From Chitinophagaceae bacterium (GTDB lineage Bacteria > Bacteroidota > Bacteroidia > Chitinophagales > Chitinophagaceae): a DNA stretch of 26,522 nt. The stretch is from NCBI GenBank assembly GCA_026785745.1, contig JAJAZO010000243.1, positions 1 to 26,522 on the forward strand. Direction: 5' to 3'. The position numbers and the translations under genes are program-made. This document shows, piece by piece, positions 5,902 to 22,745 of the stretch; position 1 is the stretch's first letter; the number at the start of each line of letters is the position of its first letter. The notes under the pieces are model-generated. The model was given only the letters and a program-made list of their open reading frames with translations, ran no database searches and had not been told where the DNA came from.

Positions 5902-5909
5902 TATCTTTG
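5902..5909 (+). promoter_or_regulatory. Probable -7 box of asnS promoter
   Basis: TATCTTTG fits the Bacteroidota TAnnTTTG -7 consensus and lies 18 bases before the asnS ATG. A matching TTTG -33 box at the expected distance is not evident, so the promoter is only partly supported. Confidence 0.4.
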
Positions 5910-5927
5910 CCCTCCAAAATTTCAGGC

Positions 5928-7367
5928 ATGTTCAACAAACGAATAAAAATAAAAGAGCTGCTTTTACAAGAGCCAACCGGGCAGCAAGTAACCGTAATGG
6001 GATGGGTGCGAACCTTTCGCAATAACCAGTTTATAGCACTCAATGACGGCAGCACTAATAATAACCTGCAGGTGGTGGTAGCACTCGGCAGCCAGGATGA
6101 TGAGTTGTTGAAACGCATCACTACTTCCGCTTCACTGAAAGTAACAGGTACCGTTGTTCCATCATTGGGCAAGGGACAAAAAATGGATTTGAATGCCACC
6201 GACATTGAAATACTTGGCGACAGCGATGCAGAAATTTATCCATTGCAACCAAAGAAGCACAGCCTTGAATTTTTAAGGGAGATTGCCCACTTACGTTTTC
6301 GTACCAACACCTTTGGTTCGGTGTTCCGGGTGCGTCATGCACTGGCATTTGCTGTTCATAAATTTTTTAATGATAAGGGCTTTGTGTACATGCACACACC
6401 CATCATTACCGCCAGCGATGCAGAAGGTGCCGGCGAAATGTTTCGTGTAACAACATTACCGTTTGAGGAAACACCCCGCAATGAAAAAGACGAAGTGGAT
6501 TTCAAACATGATTTTTTTGGAAGAGCCACCAACTTAACTGTTAGCGGACAGTTGGAAGGAGAACTCGGCGCAACAGCTTTTGGTGAGATATATACATTTG
6601 GTCCAACGTTCCGTGCAGAGAACAGTAACACAGCAAGACATCTTGCTGAATTCTGGATGATAGAACCCGAAATGGCTTTCCATGATTTAGAAGACAATGC
6701 CAATCTTGCTGAAGAGTTTATCAAGTACCTTATTAAATATGCTATTGATAATAATAAAGAAGACCTTGAATTTCTGGCACAACGTTTAGCGGACGAAGAA
6801 AAACAATAGCCGCAGGATAAACGCAGTGAAATGGGCTTGATAGAAAAATTAGAATTTGTACTCATCAATAATTTTGAACGACTTACTTACACCGAGGCTA
6901 TTGATATATTAAGAGAGAGCAGCCACAACAAGAAAAAGAAATTTCAATACCCGATTACAGATTGGGGAATGGACTTACAAAGTGAACATGAAAGATACCT
7001 GGTAGAAAAGCATTTTAAAAAACCGGTGATACTGACCGACTATCCCGCCGCCATCAAATCATTTTACATGAGGATGAATGATGATGGAAAAACAGTTGCG
7101 GCGATGGACATTCTTGCTCCCGGCATTGGAGAAATAGTTGGTGGTTCTCAAAGAGAAGAACGGTTTGATAAATTACTTGACCGCATGAAAGATATGGGTA
7201 TACAAGAGGAAGAACTCTGGTGGTATCTGGACACCCGCCGCTTCGGTACTGTCCCTCATGCAGGTTTTGGTCTTGGATTTGAGCGGATGGTACAATTTGT
7301 AACCGGGATGACGAATATCCGGGATGTGATTGCTTTTCCGAGAACGCCGGGTAGTGCGGAGTATTAA
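5928..7367 (+). pseudogene. asnS: Asparagine--tRNA ligase AsnS with in-frame TAG
   Basis: AsnS is the cytoplasmic class II enzyme that charges tRNA(Asn). The frame from ATG 5928 to TAA 7367 spans 479 codon positions, normal for the family. It shows an N-terminal OB anticodon-binding domain ([20 protein letters not shown]), class II motif 1 region ([22 protein letters not shown]), motif 2 ([20 protein letters not shown]) and motif 3 ([15 protein letters not shown]). Codon 294 is TAG (6807-6809), in the same frame on both sides, between ADEEKQ and [10 protein letters not shown]. The flanking protein is continuous with no insertion or deletion. The upstream 293-residue product lacks motif 3, so it should be inactive. 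A start at the upstream TTG (5907) would add seven residues and is less likely than the ATG. Because asnS is normally essential, a base error, readthrough, or a second functional route are all possible. Confidence 0.9.
6807..6809 (+). other. In-frame amber codon within asnS
   Basis: TAG interrupts the asnS frame between CAA and CCG. Every other complete gene in the window ends in TAA or TGA, so TAG is rare here. The next in-frame ATG is at 6831. One base change from a sense codon explains it. Confidence 0.9.
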
Positions 7368-7536: not shown

Positions 7537-10524
7537 ATGAAAATCATTGTATTGCTATGTTCGTTATTACTGCTCTCTTTTTTTGTATCAGCACAGACAT
7601 GGAAGGAATTAAATACTGAATTCAAGAGACTCACAAACAACTCCAACCTTGGAATTGAATATGAAACAGCATTTAAAATAGCCGAAAAATCTGTTGAGGC
7701 TGCTAAAAAAGAATTTGGAGAATCAGATTCGAACTATGCTACGAGTTTGAGCAACCTGGCATTTGCTTATTCATTTTATAATAATTTCGAAAAATCAAAA
7801 CCACTTTATATACAGGCACAAGAAATAAGGAAGAGGATTTTAGGGGAAATGCATCCCGATTATGCCTCCGGCATACAAAGCATGGGTGATTTTTATTATC
7901 GTAAAGATGAGAAGGAGAAAGCAGAAGCATTCTTTATACAGGCCATAAATCTTCGTAAAAAAATATTAGGGGAAAACCATCCGGATTACGCCGAAAGCCT
8001 GACCAGTCTTGGTCAGCTATATACCGATATGAGCTTGTATACAAAAGGTAATACCTTATTCATTGAAGCAAGGGAAATCAATAAAAAAATTCTTACAGAA
8101 TCCGATCCGGGGTATGTGGAGAACCTTAATAGCCTGGCTCTTTTATATACCAAGTCAGTACAGTATGAAAAAGCCGAACCGATTTATATAATTGCAAAGG
8201 ATGCAACAAGAAAATTATTCGGCGAAGCAGGTACGAGGTATGCAAAAAGCTTATCCACCCTGTCAGAATTATATGGTGCTATGTTTCAATTTGACAAGCA
8301 AGAAAAAATGCTGGTCCAAGCCATTGATATTTACAAACAAGTTCATAGTGAAACGCACCCTAATTATGCGGGTATGCTTTATAATTTAGCAGGCATATAC
8401 TCCCGAAAAAAGGAATATGAAAAGGCTGAACTCCTTTTTGTTAAAGCCATGGAAATCTTCAAAGCAGCACAGGGTAAATCTACAGGCTATACGGCATGTC
8501 TGAACGGGCTGGGTATATTATTTATGGTGAAAGAAGATTACAAAAAGGCGGAATCTTATTTTTTAGAATCAAGAGAACTTAAAATAAAACTTTTTGGCAA
8601 ACAGAACTCTGAATATGCAATAAGTCTAAATAATTTAGCTGAAGTATATACTGCAACTGGTCAATATCAAAAAGCTGAACCGCTTTATTTTGAGGCAATT
8701 CCAATAATTAAAAAAAACCGGGGCGAAAACAGTCCAAGTTATACAGCTTTGATCAGTAATCTTGCTGTGTTGTATTCAAATACTAACCAGGTTGCAAAAG
8801 CAGTTCCTTTGTTCATAGAGCAAAGCAATACTTTAATAAAAAACTTGCTGAAAAATTTTACAGTTCTTTCAGAAAGAGAAAAAGGGAATTACCTTGATAT
8901 TAATGCCTCTTTGATTTCCTTGAGTAACAGTTTTGCTTACAAACTAAAAAAAGTTCCTGCTGCTATATTGATGAATAATCTGAATCAACAACTTGTTTTC
9001 AAATCGTTGAGCCTGTCGGACACAAAAAACATTCTTTTATCCATACAACAAAACCCTGACACCTTACTTAATCAATTGCTGAAAAAATGGCAAGCTGATA
9101 AAAGTATATTAACAGAACAATATTCTTTGCCCGTTACCAGCAGACGAACGGACATACATGAAATGGAAATCAATATTGAAGGCTTAGAAAAAGAGCTTAA
9201 CCGTAAATCAGCAGAATTTCGTAATCAACAAAAAAGCATCCGTATTTCCTTGCAAGACGTTCGCAAAAATCTGGAACCAAATGAAGTTGCTATTGAATTT
9301 GTCAACTTTAAATTTTATAATAAAAAATGGACAAACAGCACTATCTATGCAGCTTATATATTGAATAAAAATGATTCAGTTCCGGTATTTGTTCCGCTCT
9401 TTGAGGAAAAACAATTACAACAACTTCTTGACAGTGCTGGTAACACTGCTACCAGCATGGTTAGCAGTTTTTATCGTGGCCTCGAAACTAAAAATAAAAG
9501 TGCAGTTACTTTAGGGAAAGAATTATACAAATTAGTGTGGCAACCACTTGAAGCATACTTTAAATGGGTAAAGAAAATTTCCTTCTCACTTGCCGGAAAA
9601 TTACACAGCATTGCGTTTCATGCTTTACAAATAGACAGTACAATGATATTGATGGATAAGTACTATTTGCAACAATACACCAGCACCCGACAGGTAGTAT
9701 TAAGGGAAAATGAAAAGAAAAATCCACAACCCCAAAGCGTTATATTATTTGGTGACCCAAGCTTTACAATGGATAGTTTGCAATTGGTAAAACAAAAAGA
9801 GTATCGGGCGGTTAAAGAAAAGAGTTTTACTCCCATTTATGATTCAAAAAAAAGAAGCAGGGATAACAATAGCTGGAACAACCTGTCTGGCACAGCGGAA
9901 GAAGTAAGTAAAATCAAACAATTGTTTGATCAGAATAATATCTCCACAAAATCATATACTCAATCAGCAGCTTCCGAAGAAAACCTGAAAGCACTCAGCG
10001 GTAACTCACCACAAATATTGCACATCGCCACACACGGTTTCTTTTTACCAGAACCTGATAAAAAAAGAAAAGAAAATAATTTCAATAATGAAAATACTTA
10101 CACATTAGCTGATGACCCTTTACTCAGAAGCGGCTTAATACTTTCCGGCGGCAACTATGCCTGGAGTGGTAAAACACCAATAGAAGGTGTGGAAGATGGT
10201 ATAGCGACAGCCTATGAAATTGCTCAATTAAATTTAAGCAATACCGAACTCGTTGTACTTAGTGCCTGCGAAACAGCATTGGGTGATGTAAAAGGAAGTG
10301 AAGGTGTATTTGGCTTGCAACGGGCCTTCAAAATGGCCGGAGTAAAAAAGATGATAGTGAGCCTTTGGCAAGTACCGGATAAAGAAACCGCCGAGTTGAT
10401 GACAACTTTTTATGGCTACTGGATGAAAGGTAAATCCATCAATGAATCCTTTACACAAGCACAAGCTGATATGCGGAAGAAATATTCTCCTTTTTACTGG
10501 GCGGCGTTTGTGCTGGTGGAGTAA
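7537..10524 (+). CDS. Exported TPR-CHAT protein 1 (caspase-like peptidase domain)
   Basis: The 995-residue protein has a signal peptide (MKIIVLLCSLLLLSFFVSAQ). Nine kinesin-light-chain-type TPR units of 42 residues follow from about residue 67 to 430, each starting with Y-A and ending with G-E-x-H-P-D or a variant (the sixth unit is one residue short). A helical linker (NFTVLSEREKGNYLD, then LNRKSAEFRNQQKS) leads to a C-terminal CHAT domain. The clan CD catalytic pair is visible: His833 in ILHIATHGFF and Cys911 in VVLSACETALGD. AWSGKTPIEGVEDGIATAYE and VSLWQVPD are other conserved CHAT segments. CHAT proteins are caspase-like peptidases or scaffolds, and the TPR superhelix usually binds the trigger or substrate. 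Export is unusual compared with cytoplasmic CRISPR-linked TPR-CHAT. Substrate unknown. Confidence 0.92.
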   Translation: MKIIVLLCSLLLLSFFVSAQTWKELNTEFKRLTNNSNLGIEYETAFKIAEKSVEAAKKEFGESDSNYATSLSNLAFAYSFYNNFEKSKPLYIQAQEIRKRILGEMHPDYASGIQSMGDFYYRKDEKEKAEAFFIQAINLRKKILGENHPDYAESLTSLGQLYTDMSLYTKGNTLFIEAREINKKILTESDPGYVENLNSLALLYTKSVQYEKAEPIYIIAKDATRKLFGEAGTRYAKSLSTLSELYGAMFQFDKQEKMLVQAIDIYKQVHSETHPNYAGMLYNLAGIYSRKKEYEKAELLFVKAMEIFKAAQGKSTGYTACLNGLGILFMVKEDYKKAESYFLESRELKIKLFGKQNSEYAISLNNLAEVYTATGQYQKAEPLYFEAIPIIKKNRGENSPSYTALISNLAVLYSNTNQVAKAVPLFIEQSNTLIKNLLKNFTVLSEREKGNYLDINASLISLSNSFAYKLKKVPAAILMNNLNQQLVFKSLSLSDTKNILLSIQQNPDTLLNQLLKKWQADKSILTEQYSLPVTSRRTDIHEMEINIEGLEKELNRKSAEFRNQQKSIRISLQDVRKNLEPNEVAIEFVNFKFYNKKWTNSTIYAAYILNKNDSVPVFVPLFEEKQLQQLLDSAGNTATSMVSSFYRGLETKNKSAVTLGKELYKLVWQPLEAYFKWVKKISFSLAGKLHSIAFHALQIDSTMILMDKYYLQQYTSTRQVVLRENEKKNPQPQSVILFGDPSFTMDSLQLVKQKEYRAVKEKSFTPIYDSKKRSRDNNSWNNLSGTAEEVSKIKQLFDQNNISTKSYTQSAASEENLKALSGNSPQILHIATHGFFLPEPDKKRKENNFNNENTYTLADDPLLRSGLILSGGNYAWSGKTPIEGVEDGIATAYEIAQLNLSNTELVVLSACETALGDVKGSEGVFGLQRAFKMAGVKKMIVSLWQVPDKETAELMTTFYGYWMKGKSINESFTQAQADMRKKYSPFYWAAFVLVE

Positions 10525-10642
10525 GTATTGTTCCCCTATGATGAATCAAGGATGGACTTCTTTTTTCCTGATACCCGGCATAGGATACAGTCTTCACTAA
10601 TAGATTATGTACTTTTAAAAAAATATTAGCTGAAATTTTCTA

Positions 10643-13618
10643 ATGAAAGGTAGTTTAACCATCATATTGCTTTCTATTTCTTTGCATTCATTTTCACAGA
10701 CATGGCAAGAATTGAATGATAGTCTTATCCAATATTACAATAACGGAGAATATAAAAAAGGTGTAGTGGCAGGAGAAAAAGCATTGTCAGATGCAAAAAA
10801 AGAATTTGGCGAAAATCATAGAGACTATGCCACCATCCTAAGCAACATCGCATTAGGGTATGCAAGTATGGGGCAGTATAAAAAAGCAGAACCGTTGTAT
10901 ATCAGGGTAATAGAAATCAGGAAAAATGTGCTGGGTGAAACTGATCCGGATTATGCCGTAAGCCTCAACGAGCTGGCAGAATTGTATAAAAATACAGGTC
11001 AATATGAAAAAGTGGTGCCATTGTATATAATGGCAATAGAAGTTAATAAAAAAGTGCTTGGTGAAACGGATCCGGACTATGCCATAAGCCTTGGTAAGCT
11101 GGCAGAACTATATCTATCATTGGGTCAGTACGAAAAAGCCGGGCCATTATATATTCAATCAATGGATATTTTCAAAAAAACATCTGGCGAAAACAATACC
11201 GACTATGCCACCAGTATAAACAACATGGCAAGATTTTACGAAAGTACGGGCCAGTATAAAAACGCAGAGCCGCTTTACATCAGTGCAATGTCTATCTATA
11301 GGAAAGTATTAGTCGACGATGATCTTTTCTATGCGACTACCCTGAATAACCTGGCCGGATTATACAATAAGATTGGCCAGTATGAAAAAGCAGAGCCGCT
11401 TTATATTGAATCAATGGCGATAATGAAAAAAGTTTTGGGTGAAACTCATGCAGACTATGCCAGCAGCCTGAACAACCTGGCAGAATTATACCGGGCCATG
11501 GGGCAATATCAAAGTGCAGAGCCCCTTTACATTGCAGCAATGTCTATCTGGAAAAAAACTTGGGGCAAAACTCATCCCGTCTATGCGGGAGGCCTGAACA
11601 ACCTGGCAGTACTATACGCAGGCATGGGTCTGTATGAAAAAGCAGAGCCGCTGTACATTGAATCAATGGCCATAATGAAGAAAGCTTTGGGCGAATCCCA
11701 TCCGGATTATGCCAGTAGCCTTAACAACCTGGCAGGATTATATGAAAACATGGGACAGTATGAAAAAGCAGAGCCTTTTTATACCCAAGCACTTATCATC
11801 AGAAAAAAAACATTAGGTGAAAGCCACCCTGACTATGCCATTGGCCTGAGCAACCTGGGGTTTTTATATCAAAGTATGGGTCAGTATGAAAAAGCAGAGA
11901 CGTTTATACTTCAAAACAACGGCATCGCTTTACAAAATCTGCTGAATAATTTTACCATTTTTTCTGAAAAAGAAAAAGGAAATTATATCACTAATAAAAT
12001 TGGGCTTCTGGCAATGAATAATAGCTTTATATATAATTACAAAAAAACATCCTCCCTTTTTCTCAGGAATAATTTTAACCAGCAACTTATTTTTAAGTCT
12101 CTTGCCCTTGCTGATACAAGAAATGTACTGGCATCGGCTCAACAAAGCAATGACACTACCATACGCCGGGTACTGAAAGAATGGCTAAACGCCAAAAAAA
12201 TATTGGCGATACAATACTCCCTGCCCATTGCCAAAAGAAGCACCGATCTAAAAATAATAGAAAGAAATACAGAAAATTTGGAAAAAGAACTTACCCGCCG
12301 TTCCTCCGGATTTCGTAATCAACAAACAGCTCTCAAAACCTCCATGCAGGATGTACAAAAGAACTTACAGGAAGATGAAGTGGCAGTAGAATTTGTACAA
12401 TTCCGGTTATACAATAAAAAATGGACCGACAGTATCCTTTATGGAGCGTACATTTTGAATAAAAATGATTCCGTTCCGGTATTTGTTCCCCTCTGTGAAG
12501 AAAAACAATTGCAGTACCTCTTTGATAGTGCAGGTAATACAGCTACATCAATGGTCAGCAGCTTTTATCGGGGGCTTGATATAAAAAATAAAAGTAGCGT
12601 TTCATTAGGAAAAGAATTATACAAATTAGTATGGGAGCCTTTAGAGCCTTATTTAAAAGGCATTAAAAAAGTGTCCTATTCTCCTGCCGGTAAACTATAC
12701 AGCATTGCCTTCCAGGCATTACCGATTGACAGCACAACGGTACTCATGGACAGGTATCAACTACAGCAATACATTAGTACCCGGCAGATAGCTTTACGGG
12801 ATTCAGAAAATCAGACTTCCAAACCCCGTAACATTACATTGTTTGGCAATGCAAGTTTTACCATGGATAGTTTACAGTTGATTAAACAAAAAGTAAATCA
12901 ACCGGAAAAAGAAATTGTATCTACTTCGATTTATGCTCCACAAAAAAGAAGCAGTGACAACAATACCTGGAATAACCTGCCCGGCACCGCGGAAGAAGTA
13001 AGTAAAATCAAATTATTATTTGATCAGAACAAGATAACTACTAAATCATTTATTCAAACATCCGCTTCTGAAGAAAATCTGAAAGCATTAGATGCCAACT
13101 CGCCACAGATATTGCATATCGCCACGCATGGTTTCTTTTTACCCGAACCAGATAAAAAAAGAAAAGACAATAGTTTAAATAATGAAAACAGTTACACCTT
13201 AGCCGATGACCCATTACTCAGAAGCGGATTAATATTTGCCGGAGGCAACTATGCCTGGAGTGGTAAAACACCGATTGATGGAGTGGAAGATGGAATCGCC
13301 ACGGCTTACGAAATTTCGCAACTGAATTTAAGCAATACCGAACTCGTTGTACTCAGTGCCTGCGAAACAGCTCTTGGTGATGTTAAGGGAAGTGAAGGAG
13401 TATTTGGATTACAACGGGCTTTTAAAATGGCGGGAGTTAAAAAGATGATTGTAAGTCTTTGGCAAGTACCGGATAAAGAAACCGCCGAGTTGATGACAAC
13501 TTTTTATGCTTACTGGATGAAAGGAAAAACAATCAACGATTCTTTGACACAGGCACAAGCAGATATGCGGAAGAAACATTCTCCTTTTTACTGGGCGGCG
13601 TTTGTGCTGGTAGAATAA
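10643..13618 (+). CDS. Exported TPR-CHAT protein 2 (caspase-like peptidase domain)
   Basis: The 991-residue paralogue of the preceding gene starts 118 bases after its stop on the same strand. The signal peptide is MKGSLTIILLSISLHSFSQ. There are nine regular 42-residue TPR units from residue 62 to about 426, more uniform than in protein 1 (GQYEKAEPLYIESMAIMKKVLGETHAD type). Units 4-5 and 6-7 are an internal duplication. The linker NFTIFSEKEKGNYIT leads to the CHAT domain with His829 (LHIATHGFF) and Cys907 (VVLSACETALGD). Both catalytic residues and the 78-residue spacing between them match protein 1. No clear promoter was recognised in the gap, although a TACTTTTA stretch near the -7 consensus occurs about 30 bases before the start. 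An extracytoplasmic caspase-like role is inferred. Confidence 0.92.
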   Translation: MKGSLTIILLSISLHSFSQTWQELNDSLIQYYNNGEYKKGVVAGEKALSDAKKEFGENHRDYATILSNIALGYASMGQYKKAEPLYIRVIEIRKNVLGETDPDYAVSLNELAELYKNTGQYEKVVPLYIMAIEVNKKVLGETDPDYAISLGKLAELYLSLGQYEKAGPLYIQSMDIFKKTSGENNTDYATSINNMARFYESTGQYKNAEPLYISAMSIYRKVLVDDDLFYATTLNNLAGLYNKIGQYEKAEPLYIESMAIMKKVLGETHADYASSLNNLAELYRAMGQYQSAEPLYIAAMSIWKKTWGKTHPVYAGGLNNLAVLYAGMGLYEKAEPLYIESMAIMKKALGESHPDYASSLNNLAGLYENMGQYEKAEPFYTQALIIRKKTLGESHPDYAIGLSNLGFLYQSMGQYEKAETFILQNNGIALQNLLNNFTIFSEKEKGNYITNKIGLLAMNNSFIYNYKKTSSLFLRNNFNQQLIFKSLALADTRNVLASAQQSNDTTIRRVLKEWLNAKKILAIQYSLPIAKRSTDLKIIERNTENLEKELTRRSSGFRNQQTALKTSMQDVQKNLQEDEVAVEFVQFRLYNKKWTDSILYGAYILNKNDSVPVFVPLCEEKQLQYLFDSAGNTATSMVSSFYRGLDIKNKSSVSLGKELYKLVWEPLEPYLKGIKKVSYSPAGKLYSIAFQALPIDSTTVLMDRYQLQQYISTRQIALRDSENQTSKPRNITLFGNASFTMDSLQLIKQKVNQPEKEIVSTSIYAPQKRSSDNNTWNNLPGTAEEVSKIKLLFDQNKITTKSFIQTSASEENLKALDANSPQILHIATHGFFLPEPDKKRKDNSLNNENSYTLADDPLLRSGLIFAGGNYAWSGKTPIDGVEDGIATAYEISQLNLSNTELVVLSACETALGDVKGSEGVFGLQRAFKMAGVKKMIVSLWQVPDKETAELMTTFYAYWMKGKTINDSLTQAQADMRKKHSPFYWAAFVLVE
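11204..11707 (+). repeat. Tandem 252-bp supra-repeat inside TPR-CHAT gene 2
   Basis: Two consecutive blocks of two TPR units (11204-11455 and 11456-11707) correspond unit by unit: the first units share AEPLYI-AMSI, the second share IESMAIMKK followed by LGE. The second units are close at DNA level too. This indicates duplication of a two-repeat block. Confidence 0.6.
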
Positions 13619-13702
13619 TGATACCGGCTTTTTTTATTATTCATTTGCTGTGGCCGTAAAGATTGCGTAAATTAAACAATCAATCAGCCAAAAACTACTG
13701 CT

Positions 13703-16700
13703 ATGAAATTCATCCTGGTATCATGCCTGTTGTTTTTTTCTGTTACGGCAGTTGGCCAGATTACAAGACCCACCCTTGATTTGCTGACCAAATCAATGCA
13801 ATTGTTAACTAATGGGGAATACGAGAAAGCAATTCCTATAGCAGAAAAAGCTATAGAAGTTGTTAAAACCGAAGCAGGTGAAGATGATCCTATTTATATC
13901 GGGCAACTTTTTATACTGGGATACTGCCATTACATGCTTTACCATTATGAAAAGGCAGAAAAATATTATCTCCTGCAAAAAGAACGGCTGGCAAAAACTT
14001 CCGGAGAAAAAGATATCAGCTATTCGGCCTCTCTTTCACGATTGGCAATGCTGTACAGGGATATGGGAAAATACCAGCAATCAATAGCCCTGTACTTACA
14101 GGCAAAAGCAATTAATAAAAACGTATTAGGCGAAAAAGCCACGGAGTACTCAACGGTTCTCAATAACCTTGCATCCTTATACCAGTCTATTGGCGACTAT
14201 CCGAAAGCGGAACAGCTTTTCATAGAATCTGGAAACATATATAAAGCAGCAGCGGGGGAAAACAATGCTTCATATGCGAGCAACCTGAATAACCTGGCTA
14301 CATTATATTCTGACTTGGGACAATATGAAAAAGCTAAAATTCTTTGTGTGCAGGGGTTAACTATCAGGAAAAATGTTTTGGGAGAAACCCATCCTGATTA
14401 TGCTGAAAGCCTTAATAACCTCGCTTCTCTTAGTGTATCAATGGGTAAGTATGAAGAAGCAGAAACGCTTTACATAACGGCAACAGGAATATTTAAAAAA
14501 ACCCTGGGAGAAACAAGCCCTTACTATGCTGTTGGCCTTAATAACCTTGCCTATTTCTATGAAACTACCGGCAAGTATGAAAAAGCAGAACGGCTTTATA
14601 TGGAAGTAAGAGATATAAGAAAAAGAATTTTGGGATCCACCCATCCTGATTATGCTACCACACTTAGTAACCTTGCCGGTTTATATGTATATGCCGGGCA
14701 ATATGAAAAAGCAGAAGGGCTTTACACAGAAGCGATGGAAATAAAAAAGAATTCTCTTGGAGAAACACATCCGGAATATGCTGTAAGCCTTAACAATCTC
14801 GGTGTTTTGTATGAGTCTATGGGCCAATATAAAAAGGCTGAGCTACTCTATATGGAATCCGTGGCTATAAAGAAAAAGGTTTTAGGAGATAGTCATCCTG
14901 ACTATGCCACCGGGCTAAATAACCTTGCTATATTATACACATTTTTAGGCCAGCATGAAAAAGCAGAAACCCTTTTAACCCATGCAGTAGAGATAATTAA
15001 AAACGCACTTGGAGAAAACAATATAGCTTATGCTACCAGCTTAGACAACCTCGCTAATGTATGGCAGAGTCTGGAAAAATACTCCAAAGCGGAATCGGCT
15101 TATATAAGGGCAATGCAAATCAGGAAAAACCTGTTTGGAGAAATCAATGCTACGTATGCATACAGCCTTAACAACCTGGCGGCTTTTTATAGTGAAACAG
15201 GTCAATACAAAAAAGCCGAACCGTTAATTATACAGGCAAAAGATATTTGGAAAAAAACAATGGGAGAAACCAGCCCGGCGTATGCTACGGCCGTTAATAA
15301 CCTGGCTGCATTTTACAGAAAAACACAAACACAATACATAAAAGCAGAAGCCCTGTATCTTGAAACAATACGGCTTCGGGCAATAATACTGGGAGAGAAC
15401 CATCCTTATTATTCAGGCAGTCAGAACGACCTGGCATTATTATATATGCAGATGGCACAGTATAAAAAGGCGGAGCCCCTGTTCCTGTCAAGCAGTGCTA
15501 TTCTTTTACAAAAAATACGTAGCACATTCAGCATTCTTTCAGAAAAAGAGAAAAGAAAATACCTGGACTACAACAGGGAAATAATGGAGTGTAACAACAG
15601 CTTCTTGTATCAGTACCCGAAAGCTTCCCTTGCGATTATCGAAAACAACTACAACCTGGAACTGGGGTTTAAATCATTATCACTTGCTGATACAAAGAAT
15701 ATGCTAGAACAGGTGCGTAACAGCAATGATACGGCTGTAAAAAGAATATTCAATCTATGGCTGGTGACAAAAAACATATTGGCAAAACAATACACCTTAT
15801 CGGCTACAAGCAGAACTGTTGATGTAAAATCTGTTGAAACAGAAGCAGAATCTTTTGAAAAAGAATTGAATCGCCGCTCTTCCGCTTTCACTAACCAGCA
15901 AAAAGCATTGCAGGTTACCATGAAGGATGTACAGAAAAACCTCTCCGCAGATGAAGCAGCGGTTGAGTTTGTAAAGTTCAGACTGTATAATAAGAAGTGG
16001 ACTGACTCTGTTATTTACGGGGCCTATATTCTTCGTAAAAATGATGTGGCTCCGAAGTTTGTTCCGCTTTGTGAAAAAAAGCAGTTACAGCAGTTATTTG
16101 ACAGTGCAGGAAGTACAGCATCAAGAGTAGTAAAAAGTTTTTATCGTGGGCTTGAAGTGAAAAGCAAAGAAACGGCACGGTTAGGCATTAAAATGTATAA
16201 ACTGGTGTGGGAGCCATTAGAACCATTTTTAAAAGGAGTAAAAAAAATATCTTACTCTCCTGCCGGTAAGTTATATAGTGTGGCATTTCATGCACTACCC
16301 ATTGATAGCACAGCTATATTAATGGATAAATACCAGTTGCAGCAATATACAAGTACCCGGCAAATTGCTTTACGAAATGAGGGTAGTGAAAAAGTAAAGC
16401 CAGGCAGTATTGTGTTATTTGGTGATGCACTGTTTACTATGGACAGCCTGCAATTGGTAAAGCAACGGAAGAATAATAGTAATGATAAATTTAATGCAGC
16501 ATCTTCTTATATCTCAAAAAGCCGTGACAATGAAACAGGAACCTGGATAAGCCTGCCCGGCACCGCTGAAGAAATAAAAAAGATCGGACAATTGTTTGAG
16601 CAAAATAAAATCAGCAACCATTCTTATATGGAGGAATCAGCATCAGAAGATAACCTGAAAGCATTGACAGGTAAGCCACAACAAATAATACATATTGCTA

Positions 16701-17191
16701 CACATGGTTTCTTTTTAAAGGAATTGAATAAGAAAAAAACTCCACTGTCTGGGCAGGGTAATGCCTATTCATTGGCAGAAGACCCTTTATTGCGGACCGG
16801 GTTGGTATTAGCAGGAGGTAATTATGCTTGGAGTGGCAAAACACCGGTTGACGGAGTGGAAGATGGAATTGCAACGGCGTATGAAATTTCGCAATTGAAT
16901 TTAAGTGCTACAGAATTACTGGTGCTTAGTGCCTGCGAAACTGCTTTGGGTGATATTAAAGGAACAGAAGGAGTTTTTGGAATGCAAAGAGGATTTAAAA
17001 TGGCGGGAGTAAAAAAAATGATAGTTAGCCTGTGGCAGGTGCCGGATAAAGAAACCGCCGAGCTAATGACATCTTTTTATTCTTACTGGATGAATGGAAA
17101 AAATATCAACGAATCATTTTACCAGGCACAAGCGGATATGAGAAAAAAATATGCTCCTTATTACTGGGCTGCTTTTGTGTTGGTGGAGTAA
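13703..17191 (+). CDS. Exported TPR-CHAT protein 3 (longest paralogue)
   Basis: The 1162-residue third paralogue starts 84 bases after gene 2. The signal peptide is MKFILVSCLLFFSVTAVGQ. Thirteen TPR units run from residue 65 to about 598; unit 12 carries a one-residue insertion (FYRKTQTQYIKAE). The TFSILSEKEKRKYLD linker and a CHAT domain follow, with His1001 (IHIATHGFF) and Cys1078 (LVLSACETALGD), so the active-site pair is intact. The extra length over protein 1 equals four 42-residue units, so the paralogues differ mainly in the size of the superhelix. Its CHAT DNA is more diverged from genes 1 and 2 than they are from each other. It ends 29 bases from the convergent membrane-protein gene. 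Confidence 0.92.
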   Translation: MKFILVSCLLFFSVTAVGQITRPTLDLLTKSMQLLTNGEYEKAIPIAEKAIEVVKTEAGEDDPIYIGQLFILGYCHYMLYHYEKAEKYYLLQKERLAKTSGEKDISYSASLSRLAMLYRDMGKYQQSIALYLQAKAINKNVLGEKATEYSTVLNNLASLYQSIGDYPKAEQLFIESGNIYKAAAGENNASYASNLNNLATLYSDLGQYEKAKILCVQGLTIRKNVLGETHPDYAESLNNLASLSVSMGKYEEAETLYITATGIFKKTLGETSPYYAVGLNNLAYFYETTGKYEKAERLYMEVRDIRKRILGSTHPDYATTLSNLAGLYVYAGQYEKAEGLYTEAMEIKKNSLGETHPEYAVSLNNLGVLYESMGQYKKAELLYMESVAIKKKVLGDSHPDYATGLNNLAILYTFLGQHEKAETLLTHAVEIIKNALGENNIAYATSLDNLANVWQSLEKYSKAESAYIRAMQIRKNLFGEINATYAYSLNNLAAFYSETGQYKKAEPLIIQAKDIWKKTMGETSPAYATAVNNLAAFYRKTQTQYIKAEALYLETIRLRAIILGENHPYYSGSQNDLALLYMQMAQYKKAEPLFLSSSAILLQKIRSTFSILSEKEKRKYLDYNREIMECNNSFLYQYPKASLAIIENNYNLELGFKSLSLADTKNMLEQVRNSNDTAVKRIFNLWLVTKNILAKQYTLSATSRTVDVKSVETEAESFEKELNRRSSAFTNQQKALQVTMKDVQKNLSADEAAVEFVKFRLYNKKWTDSVIYGAYILRKNDVAPKFVPLCEKKQLQQLFDSAGSTASRVVKSFYRGLEVKSKETARLGIKMYKLVWEPLEPFLKGVKKISYSPAGKLYSVAFHALPIDSTAILMDKYQLQQYTSTRQIALRNEGSEKVKPGSIVLFGDALFTMDSLQLVKQRKNNSNDKFNAASSYISKSRDNETGTWISLPGTAEEIKKIGQLFEQNKISNHSYMEESASEDNLKALTGKPQQIIHIATHGFFLKELNKKKTPLSGQGNAYSLAEDPLLRTGLVLAGGNYAWSGKTPVDGVEDGIATAYEISQLNLSATELLVLSACETALGDIKGTEGVFGMQRGFKMAGVKKMIVSLWQVPDKETAELMTSFYSYWMNGKNINESFYQAQADMRKKYAPYYWAAFVLVE

Positions 17192-17220: not shown

Positions 17221-18900
17221 TTACTGTACCGCTTCTTCCCTGTAAACAAAATAAACATTATCATAATTACGATATTGCTTTACGTCAGACCGGTGGAGAT
17301 AGTTGCTGATTCTGGCAGTATCTTCTTTTGCAACCACCGTTAATAATATTGTTTTGGGCGGCAATCGCAAAGTGCTGTCATTTAAAATGGCAAGTCCATT
17401 CAATACTTTTTGTGATTGTAGCTTGGCATACCAGTCTAAATGAGGCAGCTCGGTTGCCAGCCAAACATCATATCCCGGGTTAGCTTTGCGTATGCTGTCA
17501 GCTTCATTTGTTACCAGCCCGTTTACCGACAAGGCTTTTTGTTTAGAAGAAGAAAGGATAATTGCTTTTTTACCCAGAAAATAAACTCCATGTACAAAGC
17601 TGATACCAATAATAATTAAAAAGAAGTTTCGCAGCCAATGGGTAAACACAGCCGTTTGCTTTTGAGAAAAAAGAAAAACAAACAAACAGAGTTGCAGGAA
17701 AATAATGGGAAACAAAAAACCCCGGCTTTCATATACAAAAGTCCAGGAGGAAACGCTGCCCTTATATTCAACAGCATGGTATCGTAATGACATATAAGAC
17801 AGCATAGCAATAATAGAAAGAGAAACAAATAAACCGGTAAGCAGGAAAAATATCCTGTCAGAAATTAACTTCCGGAAATACTTCTTTGCGAGGTAGAAAA
17901 AAACAGTAACTAAAAAAGCGAGGCCAATAAAATTAATAACATAAAGCAGTATGCCATAGAGGTGGTAAACGGAGTAGAGATGTGTTTTAACCTGAACTCC
18001 CAGGAAATCAAGATTGATAACCGAAGCCGGCACAAAAGGATACAGCACTTTCAGGTTTTCAGGAAAGAAACCTGCAACATATTCATTACCGCTTTTTGCC
18101 ATTGTCCATCGCTGAGAATAAAAATCGGGATACAGGGCAAGAGTTTGTGTTTCTAAAGAATGGAAATAAAAATAATGAACAGCTACCAGCAGTACAGAAA
18201 GCAGCAATGTTACAGAGCCGTAATGAAGTATCCGTTTTTCTTTTTTTAGAAAACCAATAAATAATAAGGAAAGAGGAAAAACGATAGTAAGCGGCAGGTA
18301 GGTGAGTTTTGTCAACCCGGGCAGAAAGAATAAAAAAGCAGTTACAGCCAGGTAAACAAAAGAGGGACGGCTTCCGGCTTGGGCAATATAAATGCACCTC
18401 AACAAGGCTAAAAATAATAATGCAAGTGCAAACACATCTTTGGAAGAAGAACTGATTTCTACTGTGTAAAGAAAAAACCCTGACAAAAGGATAAATAGAT
18501 TTGTCCAGAAATGATTTTCTGTTAACAGTAACATTATTTTTCGGAGAACAAGAAAAAGAAAAAGCCACGACAAAGATTCAATCAGCCAGGTAACAAGAAA
18601 GTAATTATCCGGGAATAATTTTAATAATGGTGCGGCAATGATAGAATATAAAGGTGAAACCGCCGAGGGCAAATAAATATTCTCAGTAATGCCCGGAGTG
18701 CTAAGTAAACTAACAGGAATAGTAAACCCGTCTCCAGTAGATAAGTTTTTGGCGAGCAACAGATAAAACGATTTGTCTGTTTCATAATTGGAGAAAACGG
18801 CAACCAGGATTGATTTACTGATAGTGGCAATAGCAACAAATAACCAGCCTATCCTTTTTTGATTTAATAGCTGGTATAGAAAAAGCCGGGTGGATGCCAT
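17221..18900 (-). CDS. Polytopic membrane protein, possible GT-C glycosyltransferase
   Basis: The 559-residue protein has about ten to twelve hydrophobic segments up to residue 440, followed by a soluble C-terminal domain of about 110 residues. The first extracytoplasmic loop after TM1 carries NYETDKSFYLLLAKNLSTGDGF (residues 39-60). An acidic residue there followed by Y-x-x-x-A-x-x-L-x-x-G-x-G-F is the layout of the catalytic loop in GT-C enzymes (ArnT/PMT/DUF2029-like), which transfer sugars from polyprenyl-phosphate donors. No firm subfamily is recognised. The start codon lies 10 bases after the stop of the DUF3089 gene, so the two are almost surely one operon. Glycosyl transfer is an inference from the loop and topology. 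Confidence 0.7.
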   Translation of the reverse strand: MASTRLFLYQLLNQKRIGWLFVAIATISKSILVAVFSNYETDKSFYLLLAKNLSTGDGFTIPVSLLSTPGITENIYLPSAVSPLYSIIAAPLLKLFPDNYFLVTWLIESLSWLFLFLVLRKIMLLLTENHFWTNLFILLSGFFLYTVEISSSSKDVFALALLFLALLRCIYIAQAGSRPSFVYLAVTAFLFFLPGLTKLTYLPLTIVFPLSLLFIGFLKKEKRILHYGSVTLLLSVLLVAVHYFYFHSLETQTLALYPDFYSQRWTMAKSGNEYVAGFFPENLKVLYPFVPASVINLDFLGVQVKTHLYSVYHLYGILLYVINFIGLAFLVTVFFYLAKKYFRKLISDRIFFLLTGLFVSLSIIAMLSYMSLRYHAVEYKGSVSSWTFVYESRGFLFPIIFLQLCLFVFLFSQKQTAVFTHWLRNFFLIIIGISFVHGVYFLGKKAIILSSSKQKALSVNGLVTNEADSIRKANPGYDVWLATELPHLDWYAKLQSQKVLNGLAILNDSTLRLPPKTILLTVVAKEDTARISNYLHRSDVKQYRNYDNVYFVYREEAVQ

Positions 18901-18910
18901 TGCTGTGTAA

Positions 18911-19933
18911 TTATTTTTTCCAGAACATTCCTATCCGGCGGTTTACATTTTCCCGGATGTTCAGGTAATATAAATTAATATCGGCAATATGGTAATTCCT
19001 GTTGACGTATAAAAAGCTCCAGGGAAACTTTGGTTTCTTTACATACAAAAGACCATTACTGGTTTGTGCATCGGTGGTATGACTATAAATTGTATTGAAC
19101 CTTGTCAGCACACTTCCTTTATTCGATTTTCTGGGGGCATATTCATTTCCTGTTGTCCAGGTAAGAGGATTAGTGACGTAGGAGTTTCCATTTTCATTTT
19201 TTAAATAGAAAGGAACAAATCCTTTGCGGAGTGTTCGCCAGCTACAGATACAACCTGTTTGTAAGGAGTCTTCACACATTTTCAGCGAAATAAAATATTC
19301 TTTTGGCACCGGCCATCCGATTATATAGGCAACCACTAATTTGTTTTGTAATACTTTGCCTTCGAAGTAGTCTTTCAATAATCTTTCTGCCAGTAAACTT
19401 CCCTGGCTATGGGAGGCGATAATGATTGGCCTTTCTTTGTTCCATGTCTTCAAATAATATTCAAAAGCAGTTTTTAAATCCTGGTAAGCCAGTTCAAATG
19501 CCTTGGCGGCTTTTTGTTTATCTTTTTCAGAAAATGTTTTGATATGTGCCTGCCGGTATCTTGGTGCAAAAACCCGGCATTGATTATTAAATACACTGGC
19601 CTGGTATAGCAAAGAAGAGTAATCCGTTTTGGCATTTATATAATCATCATCAATATCAGCATTCTGGCCTTTCATTTTTTTCATGCTGGTATAAGTGGTG
19701 GGATGTAAAAAGAAAACATCCACCATCGAGTCTTTGGGTTCGTTTCGCAGCGGGGCAGGCACACTATCGGATGGGTCCCATTTCCAGGGATGGGCTGCCC
19801 AATAATTCAAATTGCTATAATCTGGTTTTCCATCAGGGCTTTTGAATGTATAGTTGCTTTTAAAAGCCTGGTATTTATCAGAACAAGAGATAATGGACAC
19901 TATTAATATTATAAGGAAGCCAAATAACCGCAT
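18911..19933 (-). CDS. DUF3089 alpha/beta-hydrolase lipoprotein
   Basis: The 340-residue protein starts at ATG 19933, which gives a lipoprotein signal (MRLFGFLIILIVSIISC, Cys17). The longer in-frame start at 19978 would place 15 extra residues before it. DUF3089 features are present: VDVFFLHPTTYTS near residue 71, a central nucleophile motif ASHSQGS with Ser176, YIIGWPVP near 203, and NYHIADINLYY with His315 as the likely base. The family is lipase/esterase-like, usually attached to the envelope. Its substrate is unknown. It heads a two-gene operon with the membrane protein and is divergent from padR. An inverted repeat (19963-19977) lies 30 bases upstream of the start and could regulate it. 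Confidence 0.85.
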   Translation of the reverse strand: MRLFGFLIILIVSIISCSDKYQAFKSNYTFKSPDGKPDYSNLNYWAAHPWKWDPSDSVPAPLRNEPKDSMVDVFFLHPTTYTSMKKMKGQNADIDDDYINAKTDYSSLLYQASVFNNQCRVFAPRYRQAHIKTFSEKDKQKAAKAFELAYQDLKTAFEYYLKTWNKERPIIIASHSQGSLLAERLLKDYFEGKVLQNKLVVAYIIGWPVPKEYFISLKMCEDSLQTGCICSWRTLRKGFVPFYLKNENGNSYVTNPLTWTTGNEYAPRKSNKGSVLTRFNTIYSHTTDAQTSNGLLYVKKPKFPWSFLYVNRNYHIADINLYYLNIRENVNRRIGMFWKK

Positions 19934-19962
19934 AAGGCAAAGTAACCCAAAACCCGCCAAAA

Positions 19963-19977
19963 TGGACAGTTCGTCCA
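19963..19977. promoter_or_regulatory. Inverted repeat upstream of the DUF3089 gene
   Basis: TGGAC (19963-19967) and GTCCA (19973-19977) flank AGTTC. It sits 30 bases before the start codon, where an operator or a 5' leader hairpin would be. Short arms keep confidence low. Confidence 0.3.
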
Positions 19978-20102
19978 CTTATTTTGCCATTTATGGAAAC
20001 GGGGATAATTTCATAATTCACAAATTTGGAAGTAAAATTCAAGCCCAGACTGCATTTGAGGGCAAAGAGTAATAATTTTTCAAACCATTACCCTAAAAAA
20101 TA

Positions 20103-20127
20103 TGGTACTTTAGTTTGCATAGTACCA
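20103..20127. promoter_or_regulatory. Probable PadR operator (autoregulatory dyad)
   Basis: TGGTACT (20103-20109) and AGTACCA (20121-20127) form a perfect 7-base dyad with an 11-base spacer. The probable -33 box TTTG (20114-20117) lies inside the spacer, so protein bound here would block RNA polymerase. PadR regulators commonly bind such dyads and repress their own operon. Confidence 0.6.
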
Positions 20128-20145
20128 AATATCACCCTATCTTTG
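20114..20145 (+). promoter_or_regulatory. Promoter of the padR-pspC operon
   Basis: A -33 TTTG (20114-20117) and a perfect -7 TATCTTTG (20138-20145) are 20 bases apart, matching the Bacteroidota sigma-A consensus. The -7 box lies 24 bases before the padR ATG. Confidence 0.7.
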
Positions 20146-20169
20146 ATTTCTAATTGAAAAAGAAGGGAT

Positions 20170-20523
20170 ATGAATATAGATAACACACAAAGCCAGATGC
20201 GGAAGGGCATATTCGAATTCTGCATTCTTTCCATCATTCGCCGGGGCGAGGCATACCCCAGTGATATTGTGGAAGAGATGCGGGCCGCCAATCTGCAAAT
20301 ACTGGAAGGCACCTTGTACCCATTACTTACCCGGTTGAAAAATGCTGAAATGTTAACCTATCGCTGGGTAGAAAGTAATTCCGGGCCACCCCGCAAATAT
20401 TTTTCACTAACCGAAAAGGGCAGCAATTTTTATAAAGAGCTGGAGCAAACCTGGAACGAACTATCAAACGGTGTAAATGCCCTGACCAGTAAAAAATCTG
20501 ATGAACCGCTGAACAACCAATAA
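20170..20523 (+). CDS. PadR family transcriptional regulator
   Basis: The 117-residue winged-helix protein is of the short PadR type. The conserved opening MRKGIFEFCILSIIRRGEAYPSDIVEEM is the first helix and the start of the HTH. LEGTLYPLLTRLKNAEMLTYRW is the recognition helix and wing (the LYPxLxRLexxGLL signature with Met in place of Gly), and PPRKYFSLTEKG is the second wing strand. The C-terminal helix that drives dimerisation is short. Members repress neighbouring membrane-protein genes and respond to small ligands or envelope stress. It precedes the PspC gene by 35 bases, and a dyad overlapping its own promoter supports autorepression of the whole operon. Ligand unknown. Confidence 0.93.
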   Translation: MNIDNTQSQMRKGIFEFCILSIIRRGEAYPSDIVEEMRAANLQILEGTLYPLLTRLKNAEMLTYRWVESNSGPPRKYFSLTEKGSNFYKELEQTWNELSNGVNALTSKKSDEPLNNQ

Positions 20524-20558
20524 GACAACAAGAAAACTTCAACCAAATATTTAAGGAC

Positions 20559-22745
20559 ATGAAAAAGATTATCAACATAAACTTAAGCGGCCGGGTTATC
20601 CCGATAGAAGATGCTGCTTATGAAAAGTTGCAGGCCTACATTGAAAGTTTGCGTCGCTATTTTGCTAATGAAGAAAGCCGTGATGAAATCATCAATGACA
20701 TTGAGAGCCGCATTGCTGAATTGCTACAGGAGAAAATCCGCAAGGGTGCAGATGCGATAACCGATGAAGCTGTAAATGAAGTGATAGCGTCAATGGGAAC
20801 GGTAGAAGATTTTGAAGCTGAAGAAAAAGAAAATGCTTCTTCTGCAACAACCGCTTCTGCTTCTCAACAAAGCAATCAGCAAAATTTTATCTACGGTGAA
20901 AAAAACCCACGGGGTCGTTTATACCGGGATAGCAATGACAAGTTTATTGGTGGTGTGTGTAGCGGTATTGCTACTTACCTCAATGTTGATCCTGCTGTTG
21001 TACGTTTATTATTTGCCATTATAGGATTTGGTACAGGTATTGGCTTCCTGGCTTATATCATTTTATGGATTGTGTTGCCACCCAAAGATCTGGAAGGATA
21101 TAACGGTAAAAGATTGTATAGAAATCCGGAGGACAGGATATTGGGTGGAGTAGCTGGTGGCCTTGCCGCTTATTTTGATAAAAAGGCAACCAACATCAGG
21201 TTAATATTTGCCGCACCGATTTTGCTCAACATATTGATTAACATTTTTAGCGGATTCCGGTGGGATAATGATTTTGGTTTTGTGATGAACATAGGCTTTG
21301 GCTCAATCAGCGGCACCTTTATTCTTACGTACATTATTTTATGGATTGTGTTGCCCGAAGCAAATAGTGATTATGAGAAAATGGAAATGCGGGGCGAAAA
21401 GGTAGACGTAAATCGTATCCGTCAGAATGTAAAAGAAGGAATGGGTAATATGAAAGACCGTATGAAAGGGTGGGGCGAAGAAGTAAAAGAGTCTGCACAA
21501 AATATTAGTAGTAGGGCAAAAGAATTTGCAGGCACAAGAGGAAAAGCTTTTGCTTCGGAAGTTAATGACACAGTGCGCCGTGGTGGTGGTGGCATCGGGC
21601 ATGCAATAGCAGTACTTTTTAAAGTGTTTTTCTTGTTCATCGCCGGTGTTATCACTTTTTCTTTATTCGTTTTATTGATTGCATTATTGTTTGGCGGTGT
21701 TGCCTGGTGGCCAATCAATAATTTTTTGTGGACCAGTAAGTGGCAGCAAATTTTTGCATGGAGTACATTGATTTTTTTCCTTATAGTTCCACTGATAGGA
21801 TTTGTTACCTGGATTGTTCGCCGCATCATTAAAGCAAAATCAAGAAATAATTATCTCGGCTGGACCTTTGGTGGCCTGTGGACTATCGGCTTTGTGGCTA
21901 TGACATTATTTGTTTCCAGTATGGTAAAAGATTTCCGTGAGTACGAACATGTTGATACACCTGTAACTATTACCCAACCTGCCAACGGTAAAATGATAGT
22001 GGCAGTATCTCAACCGGAACTGGAATTCAGTGGCAGCTTTGGCTGGATGAATGATGGAAGGGATGGCTGGGATCTTTCTGCTGATACATTAAAGATTGCG
22101 GCTGTAAAATTCAATGTAAAAGCAAGTACTGACGATCAATACCGGGTGTTTATAAAAAGATACAGTTTTGGAAGAACAAATGAAGATGCTACAACCAGGG
22201 CTGAGGAAATTCAATTTGCTGCCGTATCAAAGGACAGTGTGCTTGACATAGCAAACGGATACGCCATTGGTAAGGAAAGTAAATTCCGGGGACAAAATAT
22301 AGAGATAGAGATACAAGTACCCGCCGGAAAAAAAATAAGGTTTAATAAATCTGTAACGGACAAGCTTAATTCTATACATATACAAGTGAAAAAAGGCGGC
22401 AGAAGAAACAGGATAACCGGGTTTGAAATTAATAATGATGAAAGTGATTTCCGGTACAGCCCCGAGGTGGATTATATAATGGGTATTGATGGAGAACTAA
22501 AAGACCCGAACGGAACTACCACCATTACGGAGCCAACTAACGATTATCGGTATGACAACAACGACAGCCTTAATCTTGAAAAGTCTATCGAAAAGAAAAA
22601 ACAGGAATTGAAAGAACTGGAAGAAAAGAAAAATAAAAAAGTGGTAAAGTCAGCTATTCTTAAAAAGAAAGTCAATAGTAAAAGTGTGGAAGATGCGGTT
22701 GCAACAACACCCACACCAGCCTCTTCGGTACTGGAATGGTTTTAA
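20559..22745 (+). CDS. PspC-domain membrane protein with two PspC modules
   Basis: The 728-residue protein begins with a cytoplasmic helical domain (residues 1-88, SRDEIINDIESRIAELLQEKI) resembling the HAAS domain that is typically co-encoded with PadR. Two PspC modules follow: RLYRDSNDKFIGGVCSGIATYL to WIVLPP (120-175) and RLYRNPEDRILGGVAGGLAAYF to WIVLPE (185-267). A charged segment (268-340) may form an amphipathic helix. Three further transmembrane stretches lie at about 348-383, 398-424 and 433-455, then a beta-rich domain (465-625) and a lysine/glutamate coiled coil (SIEKKKQELKELEEKKNKK). PspC proteins respond to membrane stress. The order of domains suggests a large envelope sensor or scaffold. 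It is cotranscribed with padR; TAA stop and 27 bases precede the next gene. Confidence 0.92.
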   Translation: MKKIININLSGRVIPIEDAAYEKLQAYIESLRRYFANEESRDEIINDIESRIAELLQEKIRKGADAITDEAVNEVIASMGTVEDFEAEEKENASSATTASASQQSNQQNFIYGEKNPRGRLYRDSNDKFIGGVCSGIATYLNVDPAVVRLLFAIIGFGTGIGFLAYIILWIVLPPKDLEGYNGKRLYRNPEDRILGGVAGGLAAYFDKKATNIRLIFAAPILLNILINIFSGFRWDNDFGFVMNIGFGSISGTFILTYIILWIVLPEANSDYEKMEMRGEKVDVNRIRQNVKEGMGNMKDRMKGWGEEVKESAQNISSRAKEFAGTRGKAFASEVNDTVRRGGGGIGHAIAVLFKVFFLFIAGVITFSLFVLLIALLFGGVAWWPINNFLWTSKWQQIFAWSTLIFFLIVPLIGFVTWIVRRIIKAKSRNNYLGWTFGGLWTIGFVAMTLFVSSMVKDFREYEHVDTPVTITQPANGKMIVAVSQPELEFSGSFGWMNDGRDGWDLSADTLKIAAVKFNVKASTDDQYRVFIKRYSFGRTNEDATTRAEEIQFAAVSKDSVLDIANGYAIGKESKFRGQNIEIEIQVPAGKKIRFNKSVTDKLNSIHIQVKKGGRRNRITGFEINNDESDFRYSPEVDYIMGIDGELKDPNGTTTITEPTNDYRYDNNDSLNLEKSIEKKKQELKELEEKKNKKVVKSAILKKKVNSKSVEDAVATTPTPASSVLEWF

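Follow-up and report, generated by a model that had tools for sequence, protein, structure and literature searches.

The 26,522-nucleotide contig C243 of a Chitinophagaceae bacterium (henceforth the window, i.e., the whole stretch analyzed), part of a draft genome of 2.8 Mb (72.8% complete, 0.94% contamination), carries a trio of tandem paralogous genes, A, B, and C, whose very probably exported products couple tetratricopeptide repeats (TPRs) to a C-terminal CHAT domain with an intact catalytic dyad (Table 1). The preliminary description of this DNA had noted three paralogs with signal peptides, TPRs, and intact His and Cys residues filling nearly 10 kb, and the open reading frames (ORFs), Pfam matches, and dyad alignment agree with it: the ORFs are intact, lie on one strand, and alone occupy 7537-17191, with intergenic gaps of just 118 and 84 bp. 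Their common architecture comprises a signal peptide, 42-residue TPRs of the kinesin-light-chain (KLC) type (9, 10, and 14 units in A, B, and C, respectively, by a simple consensus; Pfam recovers many TPR_12/TPR_10 units), a mostly helical linker of ~200 residues, and the CHAT domain, whose matches are all well over the Pfam cut-off for this family (PF12770; 24 bits) and far beyond chance. Each protein stops at the CHAT domain (...WAAFVLVE), with no Pfam domain past it and hence no tail of the kind used by the type IX secretion system (T9SS), and the signal peptides of A-C have no lipobox. None of the three matches an NCBIfam model over its cut-off. The nearest named relative of B is from a metagenome-assembled genome of Ferruginibacter, also of the Chitinophagaceae (L017), and the source genome codes for four further CHAT proteins outside the trio. 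A promoter scan was uninformative, the sigma-70 consensus being unsuited to Bacteroidota, and terminator-like sites numbered 9 against 7.9 by chance.

Table 1. Coordinates of the TPR-CHAT trio and its flanking genes in the window.
Feature	Coordinates	Strand	Details
Gene A, exported TPR-CHAT protein, 995 aa	7537..10524	+	Pfam CHAT E = 1e-64, 219 bits
Gene B, exported TPR-CHAT protein, 991 aa	10643..13618	+	Pfam CHAT E = 3.9e-65, 221 bits
Gene C, exported TPR-CHAT protein, 1162 aa	13703..17191	+	Pfam CHAT E = 1.3e-59, 202 bits
Signal peptide of A, Gln at +1 (...VSA/Q)	7537..7593	+	Sequence; predicted cleavage site
Signal peptide of B, Gln at +1 (...SFS/Q)	10643..10696	+	Sequence; predicted cleavage site
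Signal peptide of C, Gln at +1 (...AVG/Q)	13703..13756	+	Sequence; predicted cleavage site
CHAT domain of A, residues 659-994	9511..10518	+	His833 codon 10033-10035, Cys911 codon 10267-10269
CHAT domain of B, residues 655-990	12605..13612	+	His829 codon 13127-13129, Cys907 codon 13361-13363
CHAT domain of C, residues 828-1161	16184..17185	+	His1001 codon 16703-16705, Cys1078 codon 16934-16936
asnS, fixed upstream flank of the slot	5907..7367	+	In-frame TAG at 6807-6809 divides it into two ORFs (5907-6809, 6831-7367)
Gene for a 559-aa membrane protein, directly after the trio	17221-18900		No Pfam match
Downstream flank kept in many relatives	18911..22745	.	DUF3089 18911-19978 (-), PadR 20170-20523 (+), PspC 20559-22745 (+)

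Rather than standing alone as a system, the trio belongs to a wide family that has received little study. Of the 7999 candidates scored, 7510 match the C-terminal half of B (E <= 1e-10), and CHAT matches occur in half of the sampled Bacteroidota genomes (126 of 247, the source genome included) and in 25 of 42 genomes of its genus, leaving 17 with none. By these counts, and those of the arrays described below, neither exported TPR-CHAT genes nor their tandem layout is peculiar to this genome. A literature search, whose scope did not take in the sigma-factor link described below, turned up neither a publication on TPR-CHAT proteins exported by Bacteroidota nor a role assigned to them. Among the 120 best homologs, 117 start with Met; by our own heuristic 104 of these score as bearing a signal peptide, 103 with Gln at +1, and 13 do not, several of which resemble truncated gene calls. 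A lipobox-like string is seen in two of the 117. Of 65 CHAT ORFs from loci sampled across the phylum, 39 score and have Gln at +1, 20 score but carry a different residue there, and 6 do not score; of 320 non-CHAT ORFs from the loci, 139 score for a signal peptide or N-terminal transmembrane (TM) segment, 66 of them with Gln at +1. Gln at this position fits the Q-rule reported for Bacteroidota proteins exported via Sec and signal peptidase I (PMC10653852). The export signal seen in the preliminary description is thus supported, and the loss of catalytic residues across homologs, which it named as contrary evidence, is not observed: both dyad residues are present in all 120 best homologs and in 121 of 123 aligned locus rows (58 of 58 from the genus and named relatives, 63 of 65 from the phylum), the two exceptions, L127 and L150, having an alignment gap at the His. 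A simple motif search overlooked the His in several rows, in which the alignment recovers it. On these sequence features A-C would be periplasmic proteins, and nothing points to the release outside the cell that had been considered for them.

Prediction of the structure of B alone, as the preliminary description had advised, gives a model of residues 440-991 (predicted local distance difference test [pLDDT] 80, predicted TM-score 0.82) that matches Csx29, separase, and caspase, i.e., a caspase/separase-like fold, and the protease half also folds like the transmembrane anti-sigma factor DdvA. Because much of the CHAT domain had pLDDT < 50 in a first model of the whole of B, that model was used for the TPR arm only. 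Residues of Csx29 beside the dyad were compared by eye. By sequence, the CHAT profile has no match in the PDB, and phmmer with B lists TPR proteins.

CHAT-type proteases known from CRISPR systems, separase-like relatives, and cyanobacterial development are tightly gated, specific cutters. Csx29, the TPR-CHAT protein of type III-E CRISPR (Craspase), is bound to Cas7-11 and its CRISPR RNA (crRNA), unlike A-C, which differ further in their signal peptide with Gln at +1 and their longer KLC-type TPR arm. Thus, A-C lie outside type III-E Craspase, whose TPR-CHAT component has no export signal, and among the Pfam-scanned genes of the window, to which the search for cas genes was confined, there are no CRISPR genes, i.e., no Cas7-11, crRNA array, or Csx30/CASP-sigma. 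SAVED-CHAT proteins are not known to be exported, and gingipains are secreted via T9SS. The former have a SAVED domain in place of the TPRs (PDB 8tl0), and the latter, unlike A-C, are not known to have TPRs. HetF of Anabaena shares with A-C the combination of CHAT and TPR and a link to the envelope, and protease activity has been reported for it (PMC12288457); however, its CHAT domain is N-terminal (aa 1-555) and it has a predicted TM segment (PMC8406250). The PEX2 family of Parachlamydiaceae, expanded to 27 proteins, likewise has TPRs followed by a C-terminal CHAT domain, but by the published account no N-terminal domain was detected in it and it is thought to act in eukaryotic hosts (PMC4209131). 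DdvA (PDB 8rot, 8rw5) is, going by the titles of its entries, itself a transmembrane anti-sigma factor, whereas here CHAT is in a separate exported chain; among 390 CHAT entries, a set that counts duplicates and omits any shorter than 300 aa, none has the strongest hydrophobic segment of its first 220 residues beyond residue 45. Given the predicted TM segment of HetF and the presence of a transmembrane anti-sigma factor among the closest folds, the earlier statement that studied TPR-CHAT proteins are cytoplasmic was too strong.

The trio occupies a slot directly after asnS, the surroundings of which were examined in 39 of the 42 genus genomes. The slot holds one to three TPR-CHAT genes in 11 genomes (three in the window and G058; two in G027, G062, and G059; one in G028, G009, G021, and G005; at least one in G032; and, in G029, one plus a TPR gene of which the contig end leaves only the start, with pieces on a second asnS contig), is empty in 25, and is undecidable in six, either because the contig soon ends (G023, G033, G019) or because the stretch after asnS lay outside the examined set (G004, G017, G060). 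In 16 of the 25 empty slots UspA or DUF3089 is reached no more than two genes past asnS. Two occupied/empty pairs allow a clean comparison: G009 and G025 share 91% DNA identity until 2 bp beyond the stop codon of asnS and 89% identity once the 3' end of UspA is reached, with an interval of 2.8 kb (the TPR-CHAT gene) in the former versus 127 bp in the latter, and in G028 versus G012 the interval is 4.6 kb versus 292 bp; in neither pair does the additional DNA contain anything besides the TPR-CHAT gene. On an asnS tree (without G032, whose contig holds the asnS end only) the occupied state requires five changes, two of them forced by starred branches, against a shuffled mean of 8.9, with none of 500 shuffles as low. 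Together, the clean pairs and the tree indicate that these genes are accessory and come and go as clean units. The constant neighbors that the preliminary description proposed to look for did not emerge as partners: rho, UspA, an ExbD-like gene, two membrane genes, DUF3089, and PadR-PspC stand at the slot both with and without TPR-CHAT genes, for which reason we reject them as specific partners. Its remark that no substrate gene is adjacent holds for the asnS slot, although exported TPR-CHAT genes as such are common. The scattering of single orthologs among unrelated neighbors, named there as contrary evidence, is borne out only insofar as some genomes have singles; these lie in the one fixed slot.

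The tandem arrays and varying TPR lengths it described do recur, with 10 arrays of two to eight genes in six of the 42 genomes (one pair including a broken gene; two small CHAT fragments being left out of the count) and 7 to 21 TPR units among 18 asnS-slot genes, whose lengths differ mostly in 42-residue steps. The largest array, in G027 (contig C62; L022, L023), has eight exported TPR-CHAT genes over ~25 kb, after a gene read as atpA. Exported CHAT genes of several clades (L049, L055, L025, L038, L022-L023) similarly stand on the same strand right after genes read as metG, ahcY, and atpA, names given without a family search. As a separate observation, a small exported ankyrin gene (L024 4478-5281) precedes the asnS-slot array of G027, and ankyrin-TPR-CHAT proteins are found elsewhere (L032 1805-6334, P0039, P0060, P0064), that of L032 having an N-terminal part that resembles the G027 ankyrin protein and a broken CHAT part.

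Within the trio, the protease half of B is 79% identical to that of A and 69% to that of C, and the TPR halves of A-C share about 35-53% in windows along the protein. From alike protease halves and divergent TPR halves it would follow that the three probably answer different ligands and act on similar targets. The placement of C is consistent with a mosaic: it groups with the last gene of the G027 array and a G029 gene if the 200 residues before CHAT are included (support 95/90), and trees of CHAT alone break up this group, C being left unplaced in one and with A and B in another (the first CHAT tree and the slot tree each omit three short rows). Correspondingly, among the genes compared, the TPR and linker regions of C are closest to the last gene of G027 (0.51 and 0.60), and its CHAT domain, taken in two parts, is closest to B (0.60 and 0.78, vs 0.51 and 0.72 for the G027 gene). 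Other pairs are likewise mosaic: for G062-1 and G058-1, identity in the TPRs is 0.48 and that of their third positions 0.44, and the third positions of the two CHAT parts reach 0.83 and 0.69 (p=0.0005), and A and B give 0.54 in the TPRs and 0.64 and 0.70 in CHAT (p=0.006). Across 38 within-array pairs, CHAT third positions (in codons of equal amino acid) are closer than TPR ones at p<0.01 in six, with the p values being per pair and uncorrected; these are five of nine asnS-slot pairs and one of 28 pairs of the eight-gene array, with none among the G059 and G027 slot pairs. A further 23 between-genome pairs were hand-picked. We read this as the protease half being shared at times between copies, with the sensor half differing. 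Uniform concerted evolution is rejected, as many pairs have no such CHAT excess. A hypervariable, fast-evolving receptor was likewise considered and is rejected for the three pairs that can be formed from the final genes of the arrays in G058, G062, and G059: these are positional orthologs (tree support 100/100), 79-90% identical in all regions, and their ratios of nonsynonymous to synonymous substitution rates (dN/dS) are 0.12-0.16 in the TPRs, 0.12-0.29 in the linker, and 0.12-0.14 in CHAT, which places the TPR half under purifying selection.

A functional lead comes from the gene neighborhoods of relatives. In two Chitinophagales loci (L019, L020) a sigma-like gene is followed by one for a single-TM protein and then by an exported TPR-CHAT gene; the sigma-like gene of L020 matches TIGR02937 with E = 3e-8, under the cut-off, and Pfam with E = 0.12, and that of L019 is alike in sequence. 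We then sampled 60 CHAT loci from 47 genomes, hand-picked from the upper part of those phylum matches that were listed, with some passed over, before the sigma results; one without a called CHAT ORF (L117) was dropped. A gene for an extracytoplasmic function (ECF) sigma factor occurs in 23 of the remaining 59 loci (25 of 60 with a six-frame version of the detector), within 3 kb in 20, and at most two genes away in 15; those of L133 and L149 are four and six genes away and may be coincidental. On the basis of 445 PF04542 matches counted over about 91.5 Mb (20 of the genomes with these loci), a sigma gene within 3 kb is expected in 1.9 loci, or 3.8 if half were missed (P about 3e-14 and 5e-9, respectively, with the caveats that the loci lack independence and that part of the detector's training came from the same contexts). 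In 22 of the 23 loci the gene after the sigma gene has a TM segment at residues 73-143, as in an anti-sigma-like membrane protein. When five of the sigma genes were run on Pfam, four were over a sigma cut-off and that of L146 just short, and their five partners gave one zf-HC2 match just under the cut-off and two TPR-type matches over it. The sigma, TM, and CHAT genes are contiguous in 12 loci from seven families, one of them in the window's family (G188); five are co-directional (L154, L159, L161, L164, L167) and seven convergent (L136, L142, L143, L146, L162, L166, L169). Within the genus, another clade of exported CHAT proteins has an ECF sigma/anti-sigma-like pair 1.7-4.5 kb away in a kept block at five of five loci (L046, L052, L054, L058, L061). 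At the same five loci a lipoprotein-like gene lies 18-38 bp before the CHAT gene on the same strand.

Given these associations, we tentatively propose that A-C are peptide-gated periplasmic proteases or regulators of envelope signaling that probably act on anti-sigma-type proteins, a reading that we hold to be plausible but short of probable since the last step for the trio rests on analogy. As soluble periplasmic proteins, they would bind a peptide or extended protein segment in the superhelix of 42-residue TPRs, and this binding would gate the C-terminal caspase-like CHAT cysteine protease, comparable to the gating of Csx29 by target binding. The gated domain would then cut, or bind, a single-pass anti-sigma-type regulator in its outer portion, relaying a signal from the envelope to transcription; cutting is suggested by the invariant dyad and binding by the DdvA fold. 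At the asnS slot the trio would be an accessory, unlinked group of these modules with variable copy number, doing what its sigma-linked relatives are guessed to do. A broader formulation, which we regard as doubtful, is that in Bacteroidota exported TPR-CHAT proteins in general are the outer half of ECF sigma switches that sense a peptide and cut a single-pass anti-sigma factor, a Craspase-like logic across the membrane of which DdvA would be a fused version; the trio and the arrays of two to eight genes would then be unlinked sensor banks that act on these same switches and exchange their protease half through recombination.

Several observations weigh against these proposals. Neither the window nor the asnS contexts have a sigma or anti-sigma gene, the same detector finding none in 342 kb of the latter, and 39 of the 59 sampled CHAT loci have no sigma gene within 3 kb. 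In the set of 46 loci that covers the window, the genus, and named relatives, the detector reports one in six, within 3 kb in four, and misses that of L019. Sigma-linked kin come no closer to B than about 40% identity. In the seven convergent ones of the 12 contiguous cases, the genes do not form one operon. Mapped onto a tree built from 97 CHAT domains, linkage to sigma requires 13 changes, eight forced by starred branches, a count inflated by the 3 kb cut, under which L123 and L138 are labeled 'no' even though they share their kin's layout at 3.3 kb. As for the protein itself, the export score is a heuristic of our own and not SignalP; Foldseek whole-chain TM-scores against Csx29 are a modest 0.39-0.44, by query length; and in the model of B residues 753-773, 839-848, and 910-918, the last just after the catalytic Cys, have pLDDT < 50.

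The same patterns can be read as envelope defense, in which the TPR half would detect a phage or competitor protein crossing the periplasm and the protease would kill or protect the cell. Presence or absence at a fixed slot, the copy number of one to three there and up to eight elsewhere, the range of TPR lengths, and CHAT halves that are closer than TPR halves are all in keeping with it, and CHAT domains have been described in conflict systems (PMC10907252). We nevertheless consider it unlikely: PADLOC returns for A-C just generic TPR models and one weak kinase-model match over the TPRs, with no system-specific anti-phage model, the extra DNA of the clean occupied/empty pairs is the TPR-CHAT gene alone, and the low dN/dS of the TPR half in positional orthologs argues against a fast-evolving receptor. 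A role in envelope maintenance, with periplasmic or septal proteins being processed or removed as HetF does with PatU3, and with no link to transcription, would suit the CHAT genes of several clades that follow genes read as housekeeping (asnS, metG, ahcY, atpA); yet the genes are dispensable in the genus, being absent from the slot in 25 of the 36 decidable genomes, and 17 of 42 have no CHAT match whatsoever, making this less likely again. That CHAT is merely a folded signal-transfer domain acting by binding, as may hold in DdvA, appears improbable, the near-universal retention of the dyad being unnecessary for binding alone. Release from the cell, to serve as extracellular effectors or public-goods proteases, is very improbable for proteins that end at CHAT with neither a T9SS-type domain nor a lipobox.

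If the proposal of peptide-gated envelope regulators is right, it would add a protease class to envelope signaling and provide a context for the fold of DdvA. The value of the find lies in the accessory, mosaic arrays and the sigma link of the relatives, and the association with ECF sigma and anti-sigma-like genes makes the function of the exported protease testable.

Among the other genes of the window, that for the 559-aa membrane protein has only distant matches (25-33% identity) in eight of the 41 other genus genomes and thus seems inserted into an otherwise kept block. The split of the housekeeping gene asnS, which in most relatives is one long open frame, is either a draft-genome error or real. 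Further upstream, at 4294-5790, an IS200-like transposase adjoins a choice-of-anchor I protein, the match of which is limited to a portion of the model. Toward the contig ends, a GmrSD-type gene (1-471, cut by one end) and a TIR-domain protein (25266-26048, near the other) have PADLOC matches.

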